64,000 bases of DNA from Chitinophagaceae bacterium PMP191F (GTDB taxonomy: Bacteria > Bacteroidota > Bacteroidia > Chitinophagales > Chitinophagaceae): NCBI GenBank assembly GCA_001302245.1, contig LGYU01000009.1, positions 372,001-436,000 of the forward strand. The letters are read 5' to 3'. The notes beneath the pieces were generated by a model. That model was not told where the DNA came from. It worked only from the letters and a program-made list of their open reading frames with translations, and did not search any database. Below, in pieces: positions 42,086 through 44,522 of the stretch (positions within the stretch are counted from its first letter, which is position 1; every line of letters begins with the position of its first letter). The translations under genes and the position numbers were made by a program.

Positions 42086-43198
42086 TTAGTAGCTTTTTAC
42101 CATGAACATACAATCCTTGATCTTTTCGATCAGTTGTACCCTGTCAAGATCTTTGGGTGCATGATTGCCCGGTAAACGGATATGTTCATTATTGGCAGTG
42201 TCTTTTCTGATCTCGTTCAATGCTGCATAGATATTTTTGGATCTGCTGGAGAATACCACACCTTCGGCAGTAGTTTGTTTGCCGCTCAGGATACCAATTA
42301 CATCACCTGTATGGTTAAAGATGGGACCACCAGAGTTACCAGGGTTGGCTGAAATAGCCAACTGGTAAGTGAGGGTATCGCCATTGTAACCTGTCTGCGC
42401 ACTCAGGTATCCGCGGTTGTATACAATTTCAGAACTGGGTCTTGGAAAGCCAAGCGTAAAGATTTCTTCGCCCAGATCGGCAGGAGATTTATAAATGCTG
42501 TAAGGCAGGTTTCTTACCGGCTGGTAACGGCTGTCTGTAATTTTCAGTACAGCGATATCGGTTTGCCTGTTAATATACAGGGTAGAAACCTTGAAATAAT
42601 ATCCTTTGGTGCTCTGAATATATACAGAGTCTGCATTGGCTACCACGTGTGCACTGGTAATAAGATAACCTTTACCATCTACCAGGAAGCCGGTTCCACC
42701 TACTTTGGCAGGAGCATTGGGTTGTGCAAATGCTGCTGAATTATTTTTCAGGTGGTTGAGCTCCTTATTGGTTTGCTGTTGTGAATTTTTTACTTCTTTC
42801 AGTTCCTGCGACAACTGCCTGATCTCAGACACATTGTTGCGCGGAGTGAAATACCAGGTAATAACGCTGGTAGTAATGGCGGTAATACCGGCAATCGAAG
42901 CGGCAACTGCCACCACGCGTTTGTATTTGTTCCACAACTGTAATACGGTTGCTTTGGGAGCTTTTTCCCTGATCTCGCCGGATTCCAGTAACTGGTTGTG
43001 TACTTCGTTCAGGGTGGATTTGAAATTTTTCCAATCGCTGAACTGGTTCACCTGTTGCAGGAACATCATGTGTTCAACCACAAACTGGTCAACCTCGGGA
43101 TTATTTTTACGCAGTTGTTCAAAATGTGCTGTTTCTTCGGGTGACATTTCACCGCGGAAATAGCGTTCAACTGCATCTAATAATTGTAATTCCTCCAT
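42086..43198 (-). CDS. Anti-sigma-like membrane protein fused to a trypsin-like protease
   Basis: 370 residues. Residues 1-93 are cytoplasmic and begin with LLDAVERYFRGEMSPEETAHFEQL, the usual opening of Bacteroidota anti-sigma or sigma-partner proteins. One membrane helix spans about 95-117, a short coiled coil about 121-153, and a chymotrypsin-fold protease domain of HtrA type about 165-330 with H184 (LITSAHVV), D214 (QTDIAVLK) and S289 (ANPGNSGGP). No PDZ domain. The ATG shares one base with the TGA of the sigma gene (TGATG), so the two are translationally coupled. The protease domain should face the periplasm. A role as an envelope-stress sensor is inferred. Confidence 0.85.
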   Translation of the reverse strand: MEELQLLDAVERYFRGEMSPEETAHFEQLRKNNPEVDQFVVEHMMFLQQVNQFSDWKNFKSTLNEVHNQLLESGEIREKAPKATVLQLWNKYKRVVAVAASIAGITAITTSVITWYFTPRNNVSEIRQLSQELKEVKNSQQQTNKELNHLKNNSAAFAQPNAPAKVGGTGFLVDGKGYLITSAHVVANADSVYIQSTKGYYFKVSTLYINRQTDIAVLKITDSRYQPVRNLPYSIYKSPADLGEEIFTLGFPRPSSEIVYNRGYLSAQTGYNGDTLTYQLAISANPGNSGGPIFNHTGDVIGILSGKQTTAEGVVFSSRSKNIYAALNEIRKDTANNEHIRLPGNHAPKDLDRVQLIEKIKDCMFMVKSY

Positions 43199-43767
43199 CA
43201 CACATTATTATTTTTATACTCAGCAAAGAATAATTTTTTCAAACGTGCCAGGCATTTGTATTTCTGGTTTTTGGCATTATCTGCATTGGTGTATCCGAAA
43301 TGACTTGCTATATCAGTCATTTTTCGTTTCTGCAGGTAAAATGCTTCCAACAGGCTCCGGCAGGGTTCTCCCAGGTGCTGCATGGCTTTTTCCATCAGGT
43401 GCAGTTCTGCGTTCAGTTGTCCGTGGGCGTCCACATCTTCTTCAACAGGAACTGTTTCTGCAAGGCCATTCAACTCGGGAAAGAACTTTTGCTGCTGTTG
43501 TAACCTTTTGAGCCACAATCGCCTACATACTGAATAAATATAGGTTTTCAACTGGCAGTTCAATTCAAAGGTTCCGGATTTTGCCTTTTCATACAGTACG
43601 ATCATGGCTTCCTGGAAAATATCCTGGGCGTCATCCTGCGTACCATTATTATTGATAACCAATGCCTGTACCATTTTATAATGCTGTTTATAAATGGTTT
43701 TAACGGCATGCTGGTCATTCCTGGCCAATTCTTTTAATAAAGCTATTTCTGTAGGATCTGTTTTCAC
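43198..43767 (-). CDS. ECF-type RNA polymerase sigma-70 factor
   Basis: 189 residues if it starts at the GTG at 43767 (VKTDPTEIALLKEL), with AAAAGG 10 bases upstream; the frame is open 16 codons further to a TTG. Region 2 is NDQHAVKTIYKQHYKMVQALV with DAQDIFQEAMIVLYEKA and LKTYIYSVCRRLWLKRL; region 4 is CRSLLEAFYLQKRKMTDIASHFGYTNADNAKNQKYKCLARLK. It directs polymerase to a small regulon. First gene of a two-gene unit with the fused anti-sigma/protease. Confidence 0.92.
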   Translation of the reverse strand: MKTDPTEIALLKELARNDQHAVKTIYKQHYKMVQALVINNNGTQDDAQDIFQEAMIVLYEKAKSGTFELNCQLKTYIYSVCRRLWLKRLQQQQKFFPELNGLAETVPVEEDVDAHGQLNAELHLMEKAMQHLGEPCRSLLEAFYLQKRKMTDIASHFGYTNADNAKNQKYKCLARLKKLFFAEYKNNNV

Positions 43768-43970
43768 ACGCAAGTGACCTTTTATTAATACCGAATTTAA
43801 GTAGAAGTAACCCAAAAGGGCGGCAAAAATACCGGTACAAGCGTTAATTTTTCCCGGATGACGTTAAAAAGAAAAAAAAGTGAAAAAAAAGTTCAACCGG
43901 CAGGTTACCTTTTTTACTTCCCCGTATTAACTATCATAAATCATTCGTTAACAAACTTAAAAACGGTACA

Positions 43971-44168
43971 ATGAAAAAGTTTTTGTTAGTTCTGGCTATT
44001 GGCGCTTTCGTAGCTTCTTGTAATGACAGTGGTTCTACTCAGGAAACTAAAGCAACAGATTCTGCTGCTCCTGCTACTGCACCAGTAGACAGCCTGAAAA
44101 CTACTCCTGATTCTCTGGCAAAACCAGTTGATTCTCTGGCAAAACCAGTTGACACTCTGAAAAAATAA
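43971..44168 (+). CDS. Small repetitive lipoprotein
   Basis: 65 residues. A lipoprotein signal (MKKFLLVLAIGAFVASCNDS, lipobox ending at Cys17) is followed by a Thr/Ala/Pro-rich, disordered chain with near repeats PDSLAKPVDSLAKPVDTLKK. At the DNA level a 21-bp unit (CTGGCAAAACCAGTTGA plus four bases) occurs twice in tandem near 44117-44158. Likely a flexible envelope protein; function unknown. It lies divergent from the sigma operon and has its own terminator. Confidence 0.75.
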   Translation: MKKFLLVLAIGAFVASCNDSGSTQETKATDSAAPATAPVDSLKTTPDSLAKPVDSLAKPVDTLKK

Positions 44169-44384: not shown

Positions 44385-44522
44385 TTAACGACCGCCACCG
44401 TATCCATATCCGATAAAACCTTTATTCATTTTACAACCACCACTACCGCGGGAAGCAGTGCAAGAGGTTAATGAAACAACTGCTAATGCAATAAAAGCAA
44501 CGATAATAAAGATCCTTTTCAT
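44385..44522 (-). CDS. 45-residue glycine-rich lipoprotein
   Basis: A very short frame: ATG at 44522, stop at 44385. The product starts with MKRIFIIVAFIALAVVSLTS and a lipobox Cys21, so the mature peptide has about 25 residues, beginning CTASRGSGGCKMNKG and ending IGYGYGGGR. The signal, a terminator right after the stop, and AAAAATG context support a real gene. Unknown function; tiny Gly/Tyr-rich lipoproteins are common in Bacteroidota. Confidence 0.75.
   Translation of the reverse strand: MKRIFIIVAFIALAVVSLTSCTASRGSGGCKMNKGFIGYGYGGGR

Follow-up and report, generated by a model that had tools for sequence, protein, structure and literature searches.

The window considered here, meaning the whole stretch of 64,000 nucleotides that was analysed, carries on its minus strand an ECF sigma factor gene and, directly downstream, the gene of a protein that combines an anti-sigma-like part, a membrane helix and a trypsin-type protease domain. 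A small lipoprotein is encoded divergently on the plus strand. The features of the locus are listed below, with the evidence for each in brackets.

42089..43198, minus strand: fusion protein of 370 aa that joins an anti-sigma-like part, a membrane helix and a trypsin-type protease; stop codon at 42086-42088 (reading frame, Pfam, AlphaFold)
42920..43198, minus strand: N-terminal helical domain, residues 1-93, probably sigma-binding (anti-sigma) (AlphaFold, fold matches, recurrence)
42848..42937, minus strand: single membrane helix, about residues 88-117, with an invariant XAA at residues 98-100 (AlphaFold, hydropathy, conservation)
42734..42832, minus strand: predicted long helix, residues 123-155 (AlphaFold)
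42290..42697, minus strand: Trypsin_2 / S1-type protease domain, residues 168-303, with H184, D214 and S289 (Pfam, PDB match)
42089..42142, minus strand: conserved tail at the C-terminus, from about residue 353 to 370, made up of a helix and a strand (family conservation, AlphaFold)
43201..43767, minus strand: ECF sigma factor gene, 189 aa, GTG start (TIGR02937 and PF04542 matches, adjacent orthologues)
43785..43812, minus strand: probable autoregulatory sigma promoter GGTTAC-N15-GTATTAA (conserved motif upstream of the sigma gene)
43903..43930, plus strand: divergent copy of the same promoter (conserved divergent motif)
43971..44168, plus strand: small lipoprotein of low complexity, 65 aa, probably the main gene under sigma control (frame behind the divergent motif)

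The sigma protein is a short two-domain protein which scores above the curated cut-offs of both models (61.5 bits against 42.9 for TIGR02937, 35.6 against 24 for PF04542) and thus belongs to the ECF sigma factors. In its partner, Pfam and AlphaFold give the order of a helical N-terminal domain, a single membrane helix, a long helix, the trypsin-type domain and the tail. The full-length AlphaFold model (mean pLDDT 87.6, pTM 0.59) consists of helices between residues 2 and 73, a helix at residues 88-117, a further helix at 123-155, which could possibly form a coiled coil, and the trypsin-type domain. The first-pass annotation of this DNA had described a single polypeptide with an anti-sigma-like N-terminal part, a membrane helix and a protease, whose ATG overlaps the sigma stop codon. 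The domain order and the gene positions are as claimed, and the overlap is true, with one base of the window sequence shared between the ATG and the TGA of the sigma gene (TGATG).

The protease domain and its linkage to sigma genes

The Pfam model Trypsin_2 (PF13365) matches residues 168-303 with 82.2 bits, against a cut-off of 27.6. The catalytic residues are those named at the outset, and the triad of H184, D214 and S289 is invariant in 36 of 36 family members and in all 144 distinct homologues, the invariance of S289 being partly built in for 80 loci, since the search pattern held the active-site motif. With an H-D-S triad in a chymotrypsin fold, the domain is of the trypsin-like (S1) type, and the top PDB match of the AlphaFold model is DegS without the PDZ domain (E 1.4e-12). 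Such invariance of the triad favours catalysis, and on this ground the fused domain is very probably an active protease. The protein falls outside the HtrA/DegS proteases, as it has no PDZ domain and reaches only 53.7 bits against the TIGR02038 cut-off of 422.95. The absence of PDZ had been noticed earlier and is upheld by Pfam, which gives no PDZ match in the window protein at E up to 1 and, with the limit set at E 0.01, none in any of the 36 family members. The conserved C-terminal tail sits where HtrA proteases have PDZ and may stand in for it; the tail is also aligned in protease-only relatives.

Among 59 whole genomes, an orthologue is present in the window genome and in all 35 other genomes of the family Chitinophagaceae (36/36); some of these matches covered only part of the protein, yet every one of the 36 frames proved to be full-length. 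In the 23 genomes from elsewhere in the order, matches are confined to the protease domain where there are any. The sigma gene lies directly upstream in each of the 36, at distances from a 14-base overlap to a 12-base gap, with one exception at 49. The profile search of 247 genomes of the class gave at least 35 with full-length matches, of which 5 belong to the same family and 30 to 8 families of other orders; this is a lower bound, as the class and phylum searches covered sampled genomes with a limited number of candidates scored in each. The search of 198 sampled genomes of the phylum added 3 further family genomes with a match and gave no full-length match outside the class. The genome contigs were scanned as well, with no match for a single sequence and, for the profile, with 80 named loci, which are the best 80 of 501 relatives.

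The loci from the family, class, phylum and profile-scan searches were pooled into 148 loci with 144 distinct full-length proteins. The first-pass annotation had stated that its reading would fall if this protease family were never linked to sigma genes in other genomes. The opposite was observed: a sigma gene adjoins upstream in 141 of the 141 homologues whose contig reaches far enough, the remaining 3 being truncated by a contig end, and the pair is kept together across many soil and water bacteria. The spread is patchy, comprising the whole examined family and 8 families of other orders, with the other sampled families of its own order devoid of a full-length match; both loss and transfer may explain this pattern.

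Relatives that share only the trypsin domain and the same tail form a second group. The sample of 19 comprises 15 of the 27 hits listed in the class search (E up to about 1e-38) and 4 of the 5 in the phylum search. The N-terminal domain is found in 0 of these 19, and an adjacent sigma gene likewise in 0. The N-terminal parts in these loci (L117-L131 and L228-L231) are varied, and several of the proteins are apparently secreted.

The N-terminal domain and the membrane helix

Folded alone with AlphaFold, residues 1-93 give three main helices with a pLDDT of 86.3. A Foldseek search against 350,542 PDB chains returned 14 matches, none of them significant (E about 8), and the pair with the highest probability was formed by the anti-sigma domains of RsiW and RslA. 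After realignment both are weak matches, with Z 6.3 for RsiW (69 aligned residues, rmsd 4.2) and Z 5.0 for RslA (63 aligned, rmsd 5.7); the remaining matches have Z 3.1 or less. This similarity is merely suggestive, because small helical bundles match easily. Sequence models behave in a similar way: with Pfam at E up to 1, zf-HC2 is matched weakly in 5 of 36 family members (best E 0.013) and RskA_N in one of the 36 (E 0.0036), and the unrelated Hemerythrin model also appears in 5 of 36, with a better best value (0.00058). The HxxxCxxC zinc-binding motif, which occurs in many class I anti-sigma factors and not in all, is present in 0 of 144 homologues. The general layout is that of the class I anti-sigma factors, namely an adjacent sigma gene, an N-terminal cytoplasmic domain and a single membrane helix. 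The listed Pfam and NCBIfam matches of the window protein include no RsgI model, and the partner sigma factor is of the ECF type.

A better sign of an anti-sigma module than the fold match is the recurrence of the N-terminal domain after a paralogous sigma gene, joined to TPR. Elsewhere in the same genome, a paralogous ECF sigma gene (L217, G000:C6:204597-205115) is followed by a frame of 242 aa, the N-terminus of which matches the N-terminal domain profile (9.4e-11). The encoded protein aligns with the whole-protein profile at positions 8-122 only, that is over the N-terminal domain and the membrane helix, and this helix also contains an IAA. Its C-terminal part matches TPR_19 with 26 bits against a cut-off of 25. 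Going by the sequences, this pair is a sister switch with another sensor. Another paralogous ECF sigma gene of the genome (L216, G000:C64:125899-126378) precedes a reading frame, some 114 aa long, that resembles the N-terminal domain profile weakly (E 0.0016); the gene after this frame is presumably ClpP-like, which we take to be a second sigma/protease neighbourhood.

The anti-sigma role which had been proposed for residues 1-93 is thereby supported, short of proof, both by the weak RsiW and RslA folds together with the TPR-fused recurrence and by the 19 protease-only relatives examined, all of which lack the N-terminal domain together with the sigma gene. Judged from these comparisons and from the predicted fold, the N-terminal domain very probably binds the sigma factor.

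The helix at residues 88-117 is the one strong hydrophobic stretch of the protein (hydropathy 2.09). A99 and A100 are kept in 144 of 144 homologues and are the sole invariant columns before the protease domain; the runner-up positions of the membrane helix reach 112 of 148 loci. Position 98 is occupied by I in 76 of the 144 homologues, by V in 55, by A in 5 and by L and M in 4 each. The protein thus has the XAA of anti-sigma factors that are released by regulated intramembrane proteolysis. The window genome also has a gene of the M50 family (175.8 bits), to which RseP belongs. By analogy, the invariant alanine pair and the M50 gene make release by intramembrane proteolysis likely; the pair may also serve packing, because alanine pairs are common in membrane helices. 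For the RsgI factors of Clostridium thermocellum, recognition of the membrane-helix XAA by ClpXP after RseP cleavage is described (PMC12203970).

Two observations together place the protease in the periplasm: the charge at the membrane helix follows the positive-inside rule in 132 of 144 homologues, and 9 of the 19 protease-only relatives have a strongly hydrophobic, signal-sequence-like stretch in their first 25 residues. In the juxtamembrane region, which is poorly conserved, no cleavage site is visible.

The promoter motif and its probable targets

The motif GGTTAC-N15/16-GTATTAA precedes the sigma gene at 128 of 138 usable loci, against 0 of 138 for the reversed control, and several of the 10 loci without the strict motif have one-base variants. 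The divergent copy is found at 116 of 136 usable loci (reversed control 0/136), and behind it a small frame with a lipobox follows at 115 of the 116 loci that have it. In these counts the -10 part was relaxed, its first three letters being G, then A, T or G, then A. Three loci for the promoter and 5 for the divergent copy were left out, as their upstream sequence was too short, and one locus (L177), at which the sigma gene is cut by the contig end, stands outside the promoter counts. The divergent lipoprotein is of low complexity and its sequence is variable between loci. In the window (43767-43812), the -10 box and the sigma GTG are 17 bases apart, and in several relatives the distance is only 2-3 bases. 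Such a short distance suggests that the transcript may be nearly leaderless or that the start codon lies further in.

The stricter form GGTTAC-N15/16-GTATWAA gives 117 sites in the 36 family genomes, against 60 for the reversed control. The loci themselves account for 55 of the 117, and the remaining 62 are at the chance level set by the 60 of the control. This points to a very narrow regulon. In the 23 genomes from elsewhere in the order, 15 strict sites stand against 22 in the control, and a wide regulon as a general feature was rejected on these two comparisons. The window genome has 4 sites (control 2), two of them at the locus; behind another that was examined (L062) nothing convincing is found.

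The first-pass annotation had pointed to two small lipoproteins near which the regulon might be sought. The one at 43971-44168 on the plus strand indeed lies behind the motif; the other small lipoprotein frames nearby do not. A second lipoprotein-like frame of 45 aa, at 44385-44522 of the window on the minus strand, has no sigma motif and is perhaps the other lipoprotein that was meant. At three other loci (L020, L023 and L030) the divergent lipoprotein gene is succeeded by another small one, which at L023 has its own exact motif.

For some members of the family the narrow regulon has an exception, a further target indicated by a 96-aa AMPK1_CBM-like gene, for which 20 matches were found in 19 genomes. 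The motif was looked at for 8 of the 20 matches, the 7 close ones and a distant one. All 7 matches with at least 67% identity have it upstream (5 exact, 2 with one mismatch), starting 45-130 bases before the gene, and for the distant one, in G008 (33%), an exact site lies some 30 bases upstream. This AMPK1_CBM/CBM48-like protein starts without an evident signal peptide and is probably under the control of the sigma factor in 7 genera (L045, L047, L048, L057, L093, L097 and L098). At L044, L046 and L051, proteins of 140-155 aa with a start resembling a secretion signal lie 112-221 bases behind a motif; Pfam gave no useful name for the two of them that were searched, and they are possible further targets or chance occurrences.

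Proposed release of the sigma factor and comparison with known systems

The architecture, the intact triad, the one membrane helix, the strict linkage to the sigma gene, the promoter motifs and their narrow distribution are direct results of the computation. The best explanation overall, which we hold with slightly more confidence than doubt, is an envelope-signal switch in which an anti-sigma factor carries its own site-1 protease within a narrow autoregulated circuit. The cytoplasmic N-terminal domain would bind and silence the ECF sigma factor encoded just upstream, and the membrane helix would place the active trypsin-type protease in the periplasm. Upon an envelope signal, the protease domain would act as the site-1 enzyme on its own juxtamembrane region, either within one molecule or from one copy to another. 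Next, an RseP-type protease would cut the membrane helix near the invariant alanine pair, and ClpXP would degrade the XAA-ended fragment, leaving the sigma factor free. The free sigma factor would transcribe its own operon and the one divergent lipoprotein gene, and in some genera also the small carbohydrate-binding-like gene.

The covalent link to the sigma-binding part suggests that the protein cuts itself or a neighbouring molecule of the same kind. The assignment of the fused domain as the site-1 protease is evenly balanced, and the full reading, in which one polypeptide acts as anti-sigma factor, sensor and self-cutting site-1 protease and serves an almost exclusive regulon, made up of its operon and a single lipoprotein gene, is more tentative, its probability lying somewhat below even. 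A serious rival to self-cleavage, unlikely as it appears by comparison, keeps the anti-sigma factor and makes the protease domain a sensor or effector, which binds or degrades damaged envelope proteins within the response in the manner of DegP; another protease or a change of shape would then free the sigma factor. The protease gene itself stands behind the sigma promoter motif, as an effector gene would, and the genome has two more trypsin-domain frames (512 and 534 aa), so that another protease could act in trans. The peptidase-like domain of RsgI9 is described as polysaccharide-binding (PMC12203970), which also fits an effector. However, a full triad is needless for a pure binding domain and is kept in 144 of 144 homologues (S289 partly built in for 80 loci), and the link between the sigma-binding part and the protease is unbroken across the full-length set, a set chosen for it.

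In a second and improbable alternative, the tethered protease is held inactive, and the divergent lipoprotein or the C-terminus of an outer-membrane protein is its ligand or substrate. The lipoprotein would report on outer-membrane traffic and feed back on the protease, and the sigma factor would restore its level. In favour of this, no partner target is more constant than the lipoprotein (divergent motif 116/136, lipobox frame 115/116), and away from the locus the motif does not exceed the control; against it, a low-complexity, variable protein is unlike a specific ligand, and the divergent motif is missing at 20 of 136 loci. FecR-type partners can act positively on sigma factors, and several of the proteins after paralogous sigma genes in this genome look FecR-like and have weakly similar N-termini. 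Even so, a reading in which the N-terminal domain serves the sigma factor as a positive tether or pro-sigma-like helper and activation requires the protease is very improbable, as the best fold matches, weak as they are, are inhibitory anti-sigma domains in sigma complexes and an autoregulated positive loop with no inhibitor would presumably be unstable.

The sigma-E system of E. coli employs the anti-sigma factor RseA and the protease DegS as separate proteins. The present locus resembles the sigma-E/RseA/DegS/RseP system in its ECF sigma factor, its membrane-bound anti-sigma-like partner, its HtrA-type protease domain and the M50-family gene of the genome. It differs in that the protease and the anti-sigma-like domain form one polypeptide with no PDZ, and in that the promoter motif is found chiefly at the operon itself and at a single lipoprotein gene. 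If the favoured switch is true, a stress-sensing job for which E. coli uses two proteins is done by one, and if its self-cutting form is true, a self-contained counterpart of DegS/RseA exists across several orders of Bacteroidia. Combining a defined motif, one target gene and a proteolytic switch made of a single protein, such a compact system would allow one to ask what activates an HtrA-type domain that lacks PDZ and for what reason the switch has a lipoprotein as its output.

The class I factors RsiW and RslA share with this protein the gene position directly downstream of the sigma gene, and its N-terminal helical domain fits their fold weakly, whereas here the HxxxCxxC zinc motif is lacking in 144 of 144 homologues and the sequence models match weakly. 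A survey from 2020 reports a class I anti-sigma gene near 6% of Bacteroidetes ECF sigma factors against 32% for all phyla (PMC7406223). A strictly linked partner which is barely touched by the Pfam anti-sigma models suggests that part of this gap may be one of detection. The protease-only relatives of the same phylum align over the protease domain and the tail, whereas their N-terminal parts are different and 19 of 19 have no sigma gene. In the search, which was limited to open-licence papers, no published description of a fused anti-sigma/trypsin protein family or of the motif was recognised.

The nearest fusion found is RsgI9 of Clostridium thermocellum, of another sigma family. This anti-sigma factor likewise has a protease-like (S1C) ectodomain, a single membrane helix and an XAA motif (PMC12203970). 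The passages on it implicate ClpXP, report autocleavage for the periplasmic domains of RsgI proteins, RsgI9 among them, without assigning it to the peptidase-like domain, describe the latter as cellulose- or carbohydrate-binding and call RsgI9 an orphan. Unlike RsgI9, a member of the SigI/RsgI family, the present protein has an ECF sigma factor as its partner, a strict linkage to it and an invariant triad. The system is thus composed of known parts in an unusual fusion, with unusually strict conservation and a nearly private regulon.
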